Positions 1,490 to 51,504 of a DNA stretch of 64,000 bases are shown piece after piece (position 1 is the first letter of the stretch; each line of letters begins with the position of its first letter). The stretch lies in contig JAISEK010000148.1 of the NCBI GenBank assembly GCA_031264145.1, forward strand, positions 1 through 64,000. The letters run 5' to 3'. The notes below the pieces were generated by a model. That model worked only from the letters and a program-made list of their open reading frames with translations, ran no database searches and was not told where the DNA came from. Source of the stretch: Deltaproteobacteria bacterium. GTDB lineage: Bacteria; Desulfobacterota; Desulfarculia; Adiutricales; Adiutricaceae. Position numbers and translations under genes: made by a program.

Positions 1490-2656
1490 TTGAATGCGAA
1501 ATGGCATATGAAAAATAAATTAAAAAATCCATTAGAGATAATCTCTATAGAAGGATTTAAATCTTTCCGTAATTTAAAAAATTTTACACTTAATCATGGA
1601 TTAAACATATTAATTGGTGCCAATGGCGCAGGAAAAAGTAATTTTGTTGATTTTTTTCGTGTCATGGAACGTATAGCCCTCAATTGTCTCATAGAATACG
1701 TTGCTCAATATGGGCAAGCGGAAACGTTCTTTTTTCAAGGCACTAAAAAGACTCCCGCAATTAAGATTGAAATTATTATTTCCAGCATGGCGTATTCTTT
1801 TTCTTTGATTCCAAAAGTTGACGGTTCAGTGATGGTCAAGGACGAAACCTTGACCATGCCAAAATCTCTTAGTTTTCACGTTGAAAATGAGTTCATCGAG
1901 TCAGATAAAGAAAATTCCAAAGGATCAATTCTTGGTTCTACCATTCACTCTAATAAAATTGTGGACGATAAAACAATAAAGAAACATATCCATGACACTA
2001 TCGCCAAATGGCGCATCTATCACTTCCACGATACATCGCCATTTTCCACATTGCGTAAAGCGGCTTCGATTTACAACCACAAAGAACTGTTTGACGATGG
2101 ATCAAATTTACCCGCTTTTTTATGGGCCTTGAAAGGCAAACGTTCACGGGCCTATGAAAAAATAACCGCCTCCATGCGCCGTATAATGCCACTCTTTGAG
2201 GATTTCGTGTTGGAACCCGAGCCAAACGGCGCGACCCCGGATCGTCTGGTGCGCCTATGCTGGCGTGAACGAGGCTCACAGTATATTTATCAGCCATGGC
2301 AGATGTCTGATGGCACTTTGCGCGCCCTCGCCCTAATGACCGTTCTCATGCAGCCTGACCCACCATCGACCATAATCATAGATGAACCGGAACTCGGCCT
2401 TCATCCAAACTCCTTGGATTTTATGGCTGGGCTGATGCATGCGGCGGCTGAGGAAACCCAACTGGTCGTGACCACTCAATCCCCCGACTTGCTACGTTCC
2501 ATGGAGCCTGAGGATGTCATGGTTGTTCACAACTTTAGGGGAGAAACTATTCTCGAACGCCTGGAACGTGCTCCCCTGGCTGCCTGGCTGGAAGAATATT
2601 CCTTGTCAGAGCTATGGTTGAAAAACGTCATTCAGGCCGGGCCTGACGATGCCTAA
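1490..2656 (+). CDS. AAA family ATPase of an ATPase/DUF4276 pair
   Basis: This 388-residue protein has SMC/RecF/OLD-type ATPase architecture. An N-terminal strand (IEGFKSFRNL) is followed by Walker A GANGAGKSN (about 43-51). A Walker B and D-loop segment, IIIDEPELGLHP, lies near residue 297, followed by VVTTQSPDLLRSM, typical of the AAA_15/AAA_21 families. The listed start is TTG; an in-frame ATG at 1508 is an alternative, and no strong Shine-Dalgarno decides between them. The stop overlaps the downstream DUF4276 gene by 8 bases, so the two are translationally coupled. The upstream 240 bp are very AT-rich. By analogy with other ATPase plus nuclease pairs (OLD, Gabija, PARIS-like) I infer a phage-defence role; that function is not proven here. 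Confidence 0.85.
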   Translation: MNAKWHMKNKLKNPLEIISIEGFKSFRNLKNFTLNHGLNILIGANGAGKSNFVDFFRVMERIALNCLIEYVAQYGQAETFFFQGTKKTPAIKIEIIISSMAYSFSLIPKVDGSVMVKDETLTMPKSLSFHVENEFIESDKENSKGSILGSTIHSNKIVDDKTIKKHIHDTIAKWRIYHFHDTSPFSTLRKAASIYNHKELFDDGSNLPAFLWALKGKRSRAYEKITASMRRIMPLFEDFVLEPEPNGATPDRLVRLCWRERGSQYIYQPWQMSDGTLRALALMTVLMQPDPPSTIIIDEPELGLHPNSLDFMAGLMHAAAEETQLVVTTQSPDLLRSMEPEDVMVVHNFRGETILERLERAPLAAWLEEYSLSELWLKNVIQAGPDDA

Positions 2657-3368
2657 GCCGAATCTCGTCATTATCACCGAAGGCCAGACGGAAACACGGG
2701 CACTTCCGGAACTGTTGGCGGCACATCTGCGTAGTTTCGGCTGGGAGCCAATCTTCCCCACCATAGGCCGGCCGGGAGCAGCTAAAGGCGGCTCCAAGAA
2801 CTTTGAAATCCTGCTCGACAACATCAAGTTCTCCGCCCTGCAACACAGAGCCTGCTATATTTCAACCTTTTTTGATTATTACGGATTGAATATTGCCTGG
2901 CCTGGTGTGAGCGAGGCAAAAGCCGCAAGCAATGCCAACTATCGTCAGCGGCTAGTTTCCATTGAAGACAGACTGGCCAAAGAAGTAGAGGAGCGGATCA
3001 GCCGCAACGTGTTGTGGCATGGCCACTTCATACCCCACATACAACCGCATGAGTTTGAGGCACTATTGCTCTCACTCCCTGACGAGACTGCATTTGCTTT
3101 GAGTTCAAGCCACCCTGATGTGTCTGTGGATGACTTGGCCGGTAAACTTAAAAATATCGTCGCCAATTTCAACTCGTGTGAGGAAATCAATGACAGCTAC
3201 GACACTGCGCCGTCAAGACGCCTTGCCTCTCTTACCCCCTACCGCAAAGGAAAATCATCCGGGGCCCATGCATGGCAAATATTCCAGAGAGGAAAATTGG
3301 AATCTGTGCGGCAGGCTTGCCCTCATTTCAGCGCATGGTTGAGCAAGCTGGAGGGGCTGGAGAAGTGA
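2649..3368 (+). CDS. DUF4276 family protein, predicted TOPRIM-like effector
   Basis: This 239-residue protein begins with the strand-glutamate motif IITEGQTE, as in TOPRIM/OLD-type nucleases. It continues with FFDYYG at about 75-80 and HIQPHEFEALL near 133, all typical of DUF4276. It starts inside the ATPase stop region (8-base overlap), so the two proteins are very likely made together and may form a complex. Families with this layout pair an ABC/SMC-like ATPase sensor with a DNA- or RNA-cleaving partner. The nuclease assignment is an inference from the motif; the DUF4276 family itself has no function I can state with confidence. Its length is normal and the gene looks intact. Confidence 0.85.
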   Translation: MPKPNLVIITEGQTETRALPELLAAHLRSFGWEPIFPTIGRPGAAKGGSKNFEILLDNIKFSALQHRACYISTFFDYYGLNIAWPGVSEAKAASNANYRQRLVSIEDRLAKEVEERISRNVLWHGHFIPHIQPHEFEALLLSLPDETAFALSSSHPDVSVDDLAGKLKNIVANFNSCEEINDSYDTAPSRRLASLTPYRKGKSSGAHAWQIFQRGKLESVRQACPHFSAWLSKLEGLEK

Positions 3369-45350: not shown

Positions 45351-45974
45351 GATGGAAATCTCCCTGCCCATGTGGCCATAGGCCAATATTATTCGCAAGT
45401 TGGTGCCTGGGGACAAAGTGCCTAGGCCCTCAACCGTCCAACATGATAGCACATTTTCCGTTGATATTGATAGATTCGCTCTTAGTGAGCCCTTAATTGA
45501 CTTTAGCTAACTATATAACAAAAAGCAATGTTTTTACCGCACCCATAGGCCCTCCAGGGAAGGCGACGATCTTTAGTGGCGACCCCACGGGACCACCCAG
45601 GACCCGGATCTCCTGGGCCACGGCGGGGCAGCCACAGGCCGTGAAAGGAAACCGCATCCGTATTTTCCCGAGAAATGATCCTGATAGTCCAGGCCATTTC
45701 GGGTGGCCTGGACCTAGGGCCAGGGGAGGGCTAGAAAAAACTGGCCCAAGGTCTCCGAGCTAGTCTTGGAGGCTTTTAAATTTCATTAGAAAAATCAGAT
45801 AGTTCTTTAAACCATTTTACAATATACTGACAGTAACTATATCAAACTAATATAAATTATTGGCAAATAAATATTGGAACAAAACATAATTTTTATAAGA
45901 CTAAAGCTCTTGTTTGCACTTTACCATCCTCTGGAACACCAAAAGCCGAGCTATTTTTTTGCCTTATCCCTACG
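45351..45974. other. AT-rich intergenic region between pfk and the unknown operon
   Basis: About 620 bp. 45780-45910 is almost pure A/T. The promoters of the divergent pfk and 46070 genes must lie here; only the latter is clear. No gene is supported in 45497-45763. Confidence 0.45.
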
Positions 45975-46003
45975 TTGACATTTTAGCTAATTTTATGTAC
46001 TCT
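45975..46003 (+). promoter_or_regulatory. Sigma-70-type promoter of the unknown two-gene operon
   Basis: TTGACA (45975-45980), a perfect -35, is followed by a 17-base spacer and TACTCT (45998-46003). The predicted transcript start is near 46010, so the hairpin at 46024 falls just inside the leader. Confidence 0.6.
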
Positions 46004-46023
46004 TTGATATCCTTATTTAGGAT

Positions 46024-46044
46024 AACCCGACTTCGAAGCGGGTT
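46024..46044 (+). promoter_or_regulatory. Inverted repeat in leader, operator or hairpin
   Basis: AACCCG-A-CTTCGAAG-CGGGTT is a near-perfect palindrome (one unpaired A) about 14 bp downstream of the predicted transcript start and 26 bp upstream of the first ATG. It could bind a repressor dimer as DNA, or fold as RNA. Confidence 0.5.
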
Positions 46045-46069
46045 CAAACTCCAAGAAAGGGGCTTGAAA

Positions 46070-46507
46070 ATGGAACTATTGCGTCGAAAGACAAGCAGAC
46101 GCAGCCTGGCAGACTCTCGATGCCGCCAATGGCGTCTGGGCGGCCTGCAAGCAGACCTTGTGCCTAGGCCAAAACGGGGGCCTTTATGGGAAATAGAGGA
46201 GCTGCTGCCTTACTTGGCCCAATCAGAGGGACTGGATTTCGCCTCGGATGGTACTGTCTTTTTGCCTCCATCCAGGTCAGCCCGAAAGACCCGCCCGACA
46301 AAATCGTCGAGACTGGCCAAGCCACGCCCCCGTGATCCCCGAACACGATTTTGTTGGGCTGCCTTTTTCGGCTCCTCGTCAGGCCTCAAAAAGAAAAAGC
46401 CATATCTGACGATAGGTCCGGGGAACCAATATAGCGCGGCTTATCCCCGCCAAGCCCGGGCCAGGGTCTTCGGCCAGGTCCAGGGAAAGGGGGGCGACGT
46501 AATATGA
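46070..46507 (+). CDS. Unknown basic protein, first gene of two-gene operon
   Basis: This 145-residue protein starts at the ATG after AAGAAAGGGG; the track ORF began earlier at 45914. It is rich in Arg, Lys, Ser and Pro (MELLRRKTSRRSLADSRCRQ, then SRSARKTRPTKSSRLAKPRP), with a short acidic segment WEIEELLPYLAQSEGLDF. No signal peptide, membrane helix or known domain is visible. High positive charge suggests nucleic-acid binding or pairing with the very acidic partner encoded next. The stop and the next start overlap as ATGA, so the two are co-translated. I do not recognise a family, and it may be lineage-specific. Confidence 0.6.
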   Translation: MELLRRKTSRRSLADSRCRQWRLGGLQADLVPRPKRGPLWEIEELLPYLAQSEGLDFASDGTVFLPPSRSARKTRPTKSSRLAKPRPRDPRTRFCWAAFFGSSSGLKKKKPYLTIGPGNQYSAAYPRQARARVFGQVQGKGGDVI

Positions 46508-48903
46508 AAACCATAAGCCGTCCCCAAATCGACCTGCAGGGCCGCCTTCTGGCCGCCAAATTACTGCAACTCGGCGACAACTTGACCTTTGACCAGAGAG
46601 CCGACCTGTTGTATGGGTTCCTCAAGGATCGCAGGGCCCATGTCCTGGTTAGCTATGCCGAGATGATTAATAATAACTTATTGCCAAATAACAATTTATA
46701 TTCCATGCCGATTGACGACAGTATTTTTGAGAACGCCTATTTCGATGATTATGAAGAAGAAGACGAAACCGATGAAGATGATGGCGATATCTGGGACAAT
46801 GATGATGACTTCTCTGAGGAAAATGAGGCCACTGCGAACATATTTTTCACGAATATCAATTTGGGCTGGATCAATCCCCTCTTCTCAAGATCCATGACCA
46901 ACGCCAAATCGGTGTTCCTGATGCCTGCCCCAGGCTTGGTGCTTCTGGACATCACCTCCCGCCAAGGAAGGGGTTTAATCTACAATTACCAAGCCGTCAA
47001 CTCCGAGATCAAATTTAGCCCGAACCTAGTCAAAAGGGCGGCTCAATTGCTTGGCAAAGATTTGGCCGCTGAATCGTCAAGCCTGGCCAGGCGCCCCCCT
47101 AGGCTCGACAAGCGGTTGGTCCCCATTGGCCTCGACACGGTCCTGGACGACCCCGAGATCCATGATCCGGCCCCCTCCATTGTCCTTGACGAGATTGATC
47201 CCTACCAGGCCTTCCGGCTAATCAACTGGTGGGCCAGGCCAGACCAAGATCAATCCAAGAGGCCAGCCTGGGCCAACGTGTTTTTCAGGGTGAAAATTGA
47301 CCAGAACATGTATTCATATCATCCCACCTCGAGCGTCTTCCACCAGGTTAAGCTGAGATCGTTCTTTCCCGGCTCGCTTGACTTGTCCGCCCTGCCCCCT
47401 GGCCTTGCCGCTTTGGCCAGAGGAATAGGCCCTTTGGGGGACATTGGTCTACCACAAATCGTCAATTCCGAGCTGAATGCAGAGTTTGACATAAATATTG
47501 ATGATCAGGAACTAGATTTATTTGGTGATGACGATGACGATCTTGACTTTGATGATGATGATGATGATGATGTCGACGACTTCGGGGGTGATGACTTCGA
47601 TGATGACCAGGATAATGTCACTGAAGTTAAGGAGAATTATCCGGGTTCCGTTGGCGAAAAATGTCCGGCCAATGTTCTGGACAGGGATACCGAAGAGGAT
47701 CCTGGCGATGACTTTCCTGCATCGCCGGAAGAGTCACGTGATCAGCTACCAGGCGTCACCGGCGAGACGAGTGATGCCAGCCTGACCAATGTCACCAGCG
47801 ATGCTAATGGCAATAACAGCAACGAAAGAAAAAATGTCTTAAAAAAAGAAAAAACTGTGATATCTCCCTTCGATCTAACCTCACAACTACAAAAATCACT
47901 AATTCGCAATAGAGAATATTATTCTAAATACTATAAAACTCGTAAAAAAAATAAAAAATTGACCTTTAGGCTTAATGAATCTGAAGAGCAACTTAAAACT
48001 AGCCGAATACAACTCAAGGCTGTCGTGGCTGAACGAAACGGCATTCAAGAGGCCCTCCAAAAGACACAGGACGAGAACCTCGAACTTAGGCTGCGTCTAG
48101 ATAAACATGCGGAAAACGCAAAGCCATTCGCAGAAGAAATACAAAGCCTCAAGAACGAGAATGCGGAATTAAAGACAAAATACGATTCTACCCTTCGAGA
48201 ACTTGAAGCCGCCGACAAGAAAAATGAGGAGCTTTCCAAAGATCCCGACGAAGTGGCCATCGAAAACCTGGAGCTAATGTCTTCCCTCGATGAGGCCTTG
48301 AGCAAGATTAAGGAGCTTGAAAGTCTTTCCGCCAGCCAAGCCCTGGCCATAAACGATGCCAACCAAGAAAAACAGGAGTCCAATAAGGTCATAGCCAGCC
48401 TCAAGCTGGATCTGGAAAACTCTGGCCAGTGGATAGTGCCGGAATCCCTTTCCGATGTAGTGATAGCCGGCAAGCAATACTACAGCTCCAAGTTGATCTT
48501 CCATGACCGCCTGGCCCAGACCATTGCCGCCTTTCCCCAGGCCGAGTCGGACAAAAAGCACCGCATTGTCATGGAAGCGGTCAAAATAGTCAAGGCTTTG
48601 GCCGATACCATGTACACCATGAAGTTCGTGGACAACAACCTTTCCCAGGAACTGTTCCAGAGCATAACCGGCATCCGTTTCTCCATGACCGAGCGCCGGG
48701 CCACCAAACGGGAGAGGGCCTTGGAACTGGCCAGGACCTGCACCTACAATGGCAAGAAAGTCCAGTTTTTCCCCCACATAAAGTCGTCGATCCAGGGAAC
48801 TGAGTTCAGGGTGCACTTCCAATTCCTTGACGAGGAACGCAAAATTCTAATCTGCCACATGGGGGACCACCTGCCTACTGCCTATACCAAGTTCATAAAC
48901 TAA
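46504..48903 (+). CDS. Large acidic coiled-coil protein with conserved-looking C-terminal domain
   Basis: This 799-residue cytosolic protein has no signal or membrane segment. Residues about 1-75 and 105-330 look globular (WINPLFSRSMTNAKSVFLMP, NYQAVNSEIKFSPNLVKR). Asp/Glu runs lie at about 77-106 and 339-375 (DDDDDLDFDDDDDDDVDD). Residues 430-465 are Lys-rich and 465-640 form a long coiled coil. The last 150 residues contain SMTERRATKRERALELARTC, YNGKKVQFFPHIKSS and RKILICHMGDHLPT. I recall this kind of domain (E..MTK.........YNG..I...PHIK....R.HF.....KI.IGHCG.HL) closing many large bacterial accessory proteins. Function is unknown. The ATGA overlap links it to 46070. Confidence 0.8.
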   Translation: MKTISRPQIDLQGRLLAAKLLQLGDNLTFDQRADLLYGFLKDRRAHVLVSYAEMINNNLLPNNNLYSMPIDDSIFENAYFDDYEEEDETDEDDGDIWDNDDDFSEENEATANIFFTNINLGWINPLFSRSMTNAKSVFLMPAPGLVLLDITSRQGRGLIYNYQAVNSEIKFSPNLVKRAAQLLGKDLAAESSSLARRPPRLDKRLVPIGLDTVLDDPEIHDPAPSIVLDEIDPYQAFRLINWWARPDQDQSKRPAWANVFFRVKIDQNMYSYHPTSSVFHQVKLRSFFPGSLDLSALPPGLAALARGIGPLGDIGLPQIVNSELNAEFDINIDDQELDLFGDDDDDLDFDDDDDDDVDDFGGDDFDDDQDNVTEVKENYPGSVGEKCPANVLDRDTEEDPGDDFPASPEESRDQLPGVTGETSDASLTNVTSDANGNNSNERKNVLKKEKTVISPFDLTSQLQKSLIRNREYYSKYYKTRKKNKKLTFRLNESEEQLKTSRIQLKAVVAERNGIQEALQKTQDENLELRLRLDKHAENAKPFAEEIQSLKNENAELKTKYDSTLRELEAADKKNEELSKDPDEVAIENLELMSSLDEALSKIKELESLSASQALAINDANQEKQESNKVIASLKLDLENSGQWIVPESLSDVVIAGKQYYSSKLIFHDRLAQTIAAFPQAESDKKHRIVMEAVKIVKALADTMYTMKFVDNNLSQELFQSITGIRFSMTERRATKRERALELARTCTYNGKKVQFFPHIKSSIQGTEFRVHFQFLDEERKILICHMGDHLPTAYTKFIN

Positions 48904-49144: not shown

Positions 49145-49288
49145 CAATGTCAACAACTTAAGCCAGTTTCACCACCAAGTCTCGGTACCCAGAACAAAAA
49201 ATCGATCGTCGTGCCCCTAGTTAACGATCCATGGACGAGTACCATTTTTGCATATCTGAGGATGGAAGGCATTAAGTTGTTGACATTG
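49145..49288 (+). mobile_element. MITE-like element, copy 1
   Basis: This 144-bp element is bounded by a perfect 17-bp terminal inverted repeat, CAATGTCAACAACTTAA at 49145-49161 and its reverse complement at 49272-49288. The interior has no ORF. A related copy in opposite orientation lies at 56293-56412 and shares internal words such as CGGTACCCAG and AGTTAACG. It may be mobilised by a transposase not present here. Confidence 0.75.
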
Positions 49289-49405: not shown

Positions 49406-49481
49406 GCCAACTTAGCTCAGCTGGTAGAGCAGCTGATTCGTAATCTGCTGGTCGAGAGTTCGAGTCTCTCAGTTGGCTCCA
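49406..49481 (+). tRNA. tRNA-Thr (anticodon CGT)
   Basis: This 76-nt tRNA includes an encoded CCA. The acceptor is GCCAACT/AGTTGGC, the D-arm GCTC...GAGC, and the T-arm GAGAG TTCGAGT CTCTC. The anticodon loop TTCGTAA has CGT at 49439-49441, decoding ACG. The anticodon stem GCTGA/TCTGC has one U-U mismatch in the middle. The discriminator is U. It follows its own promoter, and an insertion sequence begins 62 bp downstream. Confidence 0.93.
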
Positions 49482-49950: not shown

Positions 49951-51504
49951 TCATTTTATTAATCCATAATACTCTCTAGTTGGTATTATAACATCTTGGA
50001 ACCATAAACCACTTTCGTATTTTGATCTCAAAGTTACTAATGACTGAACAGAAGTCTTATTCCACCGCATACCAGATTGTTTCATTCTCTTTTCTAGGAT
50101 ATTTTTATTGGCACCTTCTATAGCTCCACTACCAATAAAGTATCCTTTTTCTCTATATGTTTTATAATCTATAATATTTTTGTTATTAACAAGATAAGAT
50201 AGTAAATTAAGATATTTGTCTAGCTTAGTTACTTTCTTTTGCATTTTTTCAATTTCTTCTATGGTATTTTGGTATTGACTTACCCGTAATTGGCCACAAA
50301 TTTTTTCACACCAAGGAGTATATCTTTTTTTATTATTTGAAAAGAATAACTTTCCAAAGTTATATATTTTTTCTTTTAAGTGAAAAAAATCAAGGATATG
50401 TTGTGCATCTGGAAAAAGTTCATCTTTAATGGTTTTAATCCATCCTGCACCATCACTTATTAAAACTGATTCTTTATATAGACCATAATTATTTCTTAAA
50501 GCACAAGAAAATAAAAATTTTTTAAATTCAGATGATTTACCAACATAAGAAGTATATTCTTTTTTCAGTATTCGATTTTTATATTCACCAGTTTTTATAT
50601 CTTTTATGACTTTTATATTGTCACTTGTAAATATCATCCCTAGTTTATTTTCCGACCAAATAGAGCCTTCATCGTCTTTTTCTCGAGTTCGAAACATTGC
50701 GCCATCTGTTTCTATATATAAAACTCCTTTCTTCTTTTCTTTCGAGAACATTAATTTACCGCTATTTAAAAGCTCAAATGCTTTTTCAGCTTTTTCCTGT
50801 TCATTTTTAAAAGCAATTCCACCTACAATATTTGTGACATTCATGATAGTAGTTGGACAAATATTAATTCCAAGGTCCTCGTCGATAGTTTCTTTGGTCA
50901 ATTTATAAGATGTGAGTTTTTGAGCATGTTTAGCTGTTAACAACATTGCTTCTACTGATAACTTTGTTGGCAAGGCAGAAATACCTAAAAATTCATCTTT
51001 TGGAACTATAGTTGTAACCCCTTCTAATTTTTGTAACTTTTCATAGTCTGAAATAGTTTTAGGCCGTAACACATATCTTTCTATTGTTATTTCGCCATTT
51101 AATGTGATAATTGTAATATTACATTTCCTATTTGTCCTTAATATTATACCATTATCTCTATATAATTTTTTAAAATATTTAATTAATTCTGCTTCATCAA
51201 ATGAATTAATTATTTCTGATGCTATAACATTGTTTTTCAATTTAATAATCTTGTTATACTCTTTTGTAATATGTTCAACGCCATCTAATCCTTTAAATTT
51301 TGATTCATTATTTAATATTTGCTTAATTATATCTTCAAATTCAATGTATTTATTTGCTATTTCACTATTATTTAATTCTAATTTTTCATCTAATGAACAT
51401 AAAAATGACATAATTTCCTGCCTCATCTTGCTGTGCTTTTTCCAAAAACATAACCCAAAATGGGTAATGACAAAATCGTGTAGGGCAGGACTAGTGTAAC
51501 ACAA
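49951..51504 (-). CDS. DDE transposase, ISLre2/UPF0236-like
   Basis: This 517-residue transposase has the DDE-type motifs VLYIETDGAMFRTREKDD (first Asp), VLISDGAGWIKTIKDELFPD (second Asp) and ILDFFHLKEKIY. The C-terminal YFIGSGAIEGANKNILEKRM and KQSGMRWNKTSVQSLVTLR supply the catalytic Glu. The order DGA, SDGA.W, DFFHL and GSG.IEG..K matches ISLre2/ISKra4-type enzymes. The frame is intact and AT-rich, with codon use very different from neighbours. The first 25 residues before MRQEIM may be 5' extension, so an internal Met at about 27 is possible. It is likely active or recently active. Confidence 0.9.
   Translation of the reverse strand: MCYTSPALHDFVITHFGLCFWKKHSKMRQEIMSFLCSLDEKLELNNSEIANKYIEFEDIIKQILNNESKFKGLDGVEHITKEYNKIIKLKNNVIASEIINSFDEAELIKYFKKLYRDNGIILRTNRKCNITIITLNGEITIERYVLRPKTISDYEKLQKLEGVTTIVPKDEFLGISALPTKLSVEAMLLTAKHAQKLTSYKLTKETIDEDLGINICPTTIMNVTNIVGGIAFKNEQEKAEKAFELLNSGKLMFSKEKKKGVLYIETDGAMFRTREKDDEGSIWSENKLGMIFTSDNIKVIKDIKTGEYKNRILKKEYTSYVGKSSEFKKFLFSCALRNNYGLYKESVLISDGAGWIKTIKDELFPDAQHILDFFHLKEKIYNFGKLFFSNNKKRYTPWCEKICGQLRVSQYQNTIEEIEKMQKKVTKLDKYLNLLSYLVNNKNIIDYKTYREKGYFIGSGAIEGANKNILEKRMKQSGMRWNKTSVQSLVTLRSKYESGLWFQDVIIPTREYYGLIK

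Follow-up and report, generated by a model that had tools for sequence, protein, structure and literature searches.

What two overlapping open reading frames, ORF A and ORF B, may encode is the question raised by a locus in the 64,000-nt stretch of DNA that was analysed (the window; contig C41 of a 4.0-Mb MAG). The genome belongs among the relatives of Candidatus Adiutrix (Deltaproteobacteria), which are presumably of termite-gut origin, as read from the isolate names and the known habitat of the genus. A preliminary description of the locus had proposed a two-gene operon with a start/stop overlap, a clear promoter and an operator-like palindrome in the leader. The ATGA overlap was confirmed, as were the two Asp/Glu runs, the coiled-coil-like stretch and the conserved C-terminal domain of B (Table 1). 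As to the promoter, a perfect -35 element with a 17-nt spacer is present, but the -10 element agrees with the consensus at three of six positions and the site is absent from the scanner output; the palindrome is present in the leader, but imperfect. The DNA upstream of the pair was also considered as a repeat and was rejected as such, being single copy in the genome.

Table 1. Features of the A-B locus and its downstream neighbours (window coordinates)
Feature	Position	Strand	Remarks
Candidate promoter	45975..46003	+	TTGACA (45975-45980), 17 nt, TACTCT; read directly; no entry in consensus scan
Imperfect palindrome in leader, AACCCGACTTCGAAGCGGGTT	46024..46044	.	Read directly
ORF A, 145 aa, rapidly evolving partner upstream of B	46070..46507	+	A TTG start at 45914 would extend the open frame
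ORF B, 799 aa, multidomain protein	46504..48903	+	
B N-terminal region, aa 1-330	46504..47493	+	Weakly conserved, no confident fold; includes first Asp/Glu run
First Asp/Glu-rich run of B, aa 79-108	46738..46827	+	
Second Asp/Glu-rich run of B, aa 333-371	47500..47616	+	
Coiled-coil-like region of B, aa 458-634	47875..48405	+	Inferred from weak SMC/Rad50-type matches
B C-terminal BECR (RelE/YoeB-like) domain, predicted, aa 635-799	48406..48900	+	Candidate active site H758, K760, R769, H789
MITE, 144 bp, neighbour outside the A-B system	49145..49288	.	17-bp inverted ends
tRNA-Thr(CGT)	49406..49481	+	Downstream neighbour kept in all six genus copies

Relatives of B were searched for in 60 related genomes. 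Within the genus, five of the other six genomes gave a window-type orthologue, as did one genome of another genus (G015), and the rest of the family contributed shorter or more remote relatives; by domain profile search, 12 of 37 family genomes gave a match. Across ten copies, identity to the window over the C-terminal ~165 residues is 37-65%, and the coiled coil and acidic linkers differ in length, the window-type proteins ranging from 415 to 1139 aa (the 415-aa copy runs off its contig). The C-domain of the window-type copies is basic (pI 8.5-9.3), and the remainder of each protein is acidic (pI 4.3-5.8). Searches of Pfam and NCBIfam with B returned coiled-coil noise only, and the AlphaFold model of its N-terminal part (pLDDT 42) was discarded. 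An SseB-like N-terminus was considered and is not claimed for B, because hhalign gave 0.1% for the window group versus 94.5% for two short paralogues. A short paralogue with the SseB-like N-terminus and an altered candidate active site was found in two genomes (L030, 3599-9838; L029, 3352-9291), where the same three-gene neighbourhood recurs, consisting of a TonB-dependent receptor, a ~470-aa protein of no known kind and then the paralogue.

The C-terminal pattern had been likened to a domain that ends large accessory proteins, and PADLOC profiles identified a real domain of this kind: the last ~160 residues of B were matched by NsnC (E 2.3e-12) and HEC-07 (E 7.7e-6), the latter aligning aa 501-794 of B with positions 268-552 of a 553-position model, which is less than full length. 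The C-domain was modelled by AlphaFold (AF2) with a pLDDT of 84.3 and a pTM of 0.80, and in a Foldseek comparison of the model with the PDB, ranks 1-17 were all RelE-superfamily toxins (PfiT, RelE, YoeB, HigB), at a probability of up to 0.85 and a best E value of 0.086, with no match at E < 0.001. The model and these ranks, all at E >= 0.086, point to the BECR fold of the RelE/ParE superfamily and make a nuclease or toxin fold the leading reading for this end of B. The C-domain thus very probably belongs to the RelE-type BECR family; the placement is supported independently, because the C-terminus of PtuZ, encoded in the trio ptuXYZ (DUF262 protein, PtuA-like ATPase and PtuZ), has been assigned to a HigB/YoeB-like BECR fold (Gerdes 2025, PMC11980606). 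By sequence, no Pfam toxin family matched the C-domain of B (one paralogue matched YhaV only, at E 0.17), sequence profiles did not reach RelE, YoeB or YafQ significantly, and no match was found in the PDB; a BFVD fold search gave nothing useful. A profile from ten family members found the Lentisphaeraceae, Klebsiella HEC-07 and DrmE-fusion copies (1e-17 to 3e-10) and did not reach the NsnC copy of L050 (E 1.6). Viral contigs yielded no relatives of either the C-domain or the Klebsiella protein, and phage records yielded none of the latter.

A candidate active site was located by aligning residues by eye with YoeB (K-12), which has E46, K49, R65 and H83 as catalytic residues. In this alignment, FRVHF...KILICHMGDHL of B lies on HRLVY...LLIAACRYHY of YoeB, which places R769 on R65 and H789 on H83, and PHIK lies near PEPLK, which brings H758 and K760 near E46 and K49. 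H758, Lys or Arg at 760, R769 and H789 are found in all ten family copies as well as in L043, NsnC and HEC-07, and in the DrmE fusion H758, R769 and H789 are kept, with Cys at 760. Of the five short paralogues, none retains H758 or H789, and K760 and R769 are each altered in four. This split of residues, as read from the alignments, would suit one set of active RNases and another that has decayed or been put to a different use. Because the five paralogues, which come from the same bacterial family, keep a recognisable domain in which candidate catalytic residues are changed, non-catalytic versions probably exist, and B itself might be a structural or regulatory coiled-coil scaffold whose BECR-fold end binds the ribosome, RNA or protein, as its long acidic linkers, its coiled coil and the position of the locus among core genes would also allow. 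This is judged unlikely for B, since all four candidate residues are invariant in the ten window-type copies while the remaining protein diverges strongly. The domain could also be ParE-like and target DNA gyrase instead of RNA, given that RelE and ParE share a fold and are poorly separated by family databases (Gerdes 2025, PMC11980606). This is very improbable, however, as the RNase catalytic residues are absent from ParE toxins (PMC11980606) and basic residues and histidines are invariant here, and as the top 17 Foldseek matches are RelE, YoeB, HigB and PfiT structures.

Elsewhere, the domain was found in several other settings. In genome G181 (L086, 6707-9523), a 938-aa DrmE-like protein ends in a B-type domain and is encoded beside DrmA, DrmB and DrmC, that is, in a DISARM operon. 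The NsnABC locus L050 consists of genes for GmrSD_N/DUF262, AAA_15/DUF3696 and NsnC and adjoins a type IIG restriction-modification gene; because these parts match those of ptuXYZ, we take the two names to denote a single system. Upstream of the Lentisphaeraceae copy lie a helicase-type ORF and then an N6/N4 DNA methylase gene, and a UvrD-like helicase ORF comes after the copy (helicases assigned by eye); the Klebsiella copy, carried on ~112-kb plasmids, matches HEC-07 positions 37-551, nearly the whole length. A literature search on the names NsnC and HEC-07 returned no description of either. By kinship and context, the domain in these places supports a possible defence role.

Compared with these systems, B resembles NsnC/PtuZ in having a C-terminal domain of predicted BECR fold that closes a longer protein after a helical linker. 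However, NsnC/PtuZ is ~300 aa long, is PIN-like at its N-terminus and is accompanied by a DUF262 protein and a PtuA-like ATPase, whereas B carries acidic runs and has no detectable N-terminal relationship to it, and neither partner gene adjoins A-B despite the NsnC match. HEC-07 is similar in its coiled coil followed by the C-terminal domain and in being a large, single effector-like protein, but the N-terminal half of B is unmatched by it and an overlapping upstream ORF is not known for HEC-07. The DrmE fusion shares the C-terminal domain with its H...R...GxHL pattern, but there the domain is joined to DrmE. The monodomain toxins RelE, YoeB and PfiT share the predicted fold, and yefM-yoeB also shares the order of a small upstream gene and a 4-nt overlap; B, by contrast, is 799 aa long and mostly acidic, and A has no antitoxin or DNA-binding domain. 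The pair lies outside ptuXYZ/NsnABC because the partner genes are absent, and it is neither a full-length HEC-07 nor a standard type II toxin-antitoxin module. As a separate observation, a HEC-07-like protein that lacks the BECR domain is encoded between cas8g (Csx17) and cas56g (Csb2) in a type I-G CRISPR locus (L087, 6031-7416).

For ORF A, no relatives were found by sequence search, Pfam and NCBIfam gave no match, two of its counterparts gave no Pfam match, and no antitoxin or DNA-binding domain was recognisable. It might be a mere translated leader or a chance frame, leaving B as a self-inhibited single-gene effector, as HEC-07 seems to be; the HEC-07 model covers nearly all of the Klebsiella protein, suggesting a one-protein system. 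The small upstream ORFs of the relatives give no reliable alignment between species, and the GC content of ORF A at the three codon positions (0.60/0.57/0.57) carries no signal, the neighbouring genes having roughly 0.6/0.4/0.9. All A products are basic (pI 10-11.8), and shuffled versions of the same DNA also translate into basic products, so that at all six loci the pI of ORF A is what base composition gives; the charge complementarity that had been taken as a sign of a complex therefore loses its force. Against a leader or chance frame, the frame ending at the ATGA overlap is open over 144-265 codons in the window and three orthologues (P <= 0.001 each, Markov simulations) and over 153 codons in a fourth, GC-rich orthologue (P 0.12, Markov model); in a fifth, a 196-codon ORF stops 77 nt upstream of B. 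Because the same frame is kept open upstream of B, ORF A is more than chance, and a non-coding ORF A, which the preliminary description had named as grounds for rejection, is unlikely. The overlap in the window and four relatives gives the two-gene order with a small upstream partner that is typical of type II toxin-antitoxin modules, and ties the pair together as had been proposed. There is thus good evidence from these comparisons that ORF A is a real but extremely fast-changing gene, and its reading as a leader or chance frame is rather unlikely.

The preliminary description had also placed the pair in an accessory, mobile setting, which the comparison of neighbourhoods contradicts. The order leuA-ykgJ-pfkA followed by divergent A-B is common to three genomes; in G003, pfkA and B share a contig, ~4.5 kb apart and separated by an SNF2 helicase, and in G004 and G006, pfkA and A-B are on separate contigs with B or pfkA close to a contig end, so that adjacency is possible there. 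The tRNA that had been noted beside the pair is tRNA-Thr(CGU), which lies 3' of A-B in all six genus copies and is therefore no sign of insertion; integration at a tRNA was rejected on this ground. The MITE was confirmed, with perfect 17-bp inverted ends (49145-49161/49272-49288) and 39 matches in the same genome at 66-100% identity. The window's own locus is accordingly flanked by core genes (pfkA, tRNA-Thr) and the MITE, and not by a defence island. Between the window and two relatives, identity is 88-90% for pfkA, 62-65% for the C-domain of B and 27-31% for its N-terminal part; judged by these values, B diverges much faster than its neighbour genes at a shared site. The stable site in the genus, together with the overlapping small-upstream/large-downstream order (compare yefM-yoeB), would suit a general stress or growth-control toxin-antitoxin pair that is not anti-phage. 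This is considered rather unlikely, since homologous domains occur in DISARM, restriction-modification and NsnABC settings and B has diverged far more than the genes beside it, which is what a gene involved in conflict would be expected to do; phage defence is thus inferred in preference to a general toxin-antitoxin function.

Taken with the predicted fold, these data make it reasonably, though not highly, probable that A-B is a translationally coupled operon in which B acts as an effector that cuts RNA under certain conditions; this effector would probably be lineage-specific and either anti-phage or similar to a toxin-antitoxin system. A defence or toxin-antitoxin role had been raised before and is now the leading reading, by the NsnC and HEC-07 matches, the RelE-like model and the DISARM fusion. 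In this proposal, the rapidly evolving N-terminal part and the acidic linkers of B would be followed by a coiled-coil stalk that bears the predicted BECR RNase domain. In the resting cell, the RNase domain may be kept inactive by A, which would be made just before B as in yefM-yoeB and relB-relE, or by the acidic stretches and N-terminal part of B itself. The variable parts would detect a trigger, related to phage or to stress, and release the domain; by cutting mRNA at the ribosome, the domain would then bring growth to a halt. RNase activity, ribosome dependence, the role of A, the trigger and phage defence are all putative attributes of A-B.

One RelE-like effector domain, for which there is no Pfam model, would thus join NsnC/PtuZ, HEC-07, the DISARM DrmE fusion and an unannotated termite-gut gene pair. 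The locus also provides a series of orthologues, all at one chromosomal site, that have retained the effector end as the putative sensor and partner diverged, and what is sensed therefore becomes testable. A bolder and doubtful reading is that the site between pfkA and tRNA-Thr holds, throughout the genus, an immune locus of hypervariable content. One BECR RNase domain would be kept there, the sensor, acidic linkers and A would turn over too rapidly for A to align from one species to another, and an acidic linker or A would restrain the basic domain; if true, such sensor-toxin effectors would form a new class, located away from defence islands.

Two further ORF sets in the window were inspected. 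The 517-aa ORF at 49951-51504, which had been described as an IS, gave no Pfam match at E <= 0.001. At 1490-3368, a two-gene candidate defence pair (AAA_21 ATPase and DUF4276 protein) was matched by PADLOC as HEC-01A (5e-116) and HEC-01B (6e-49) and is related to AriA of PARIS.
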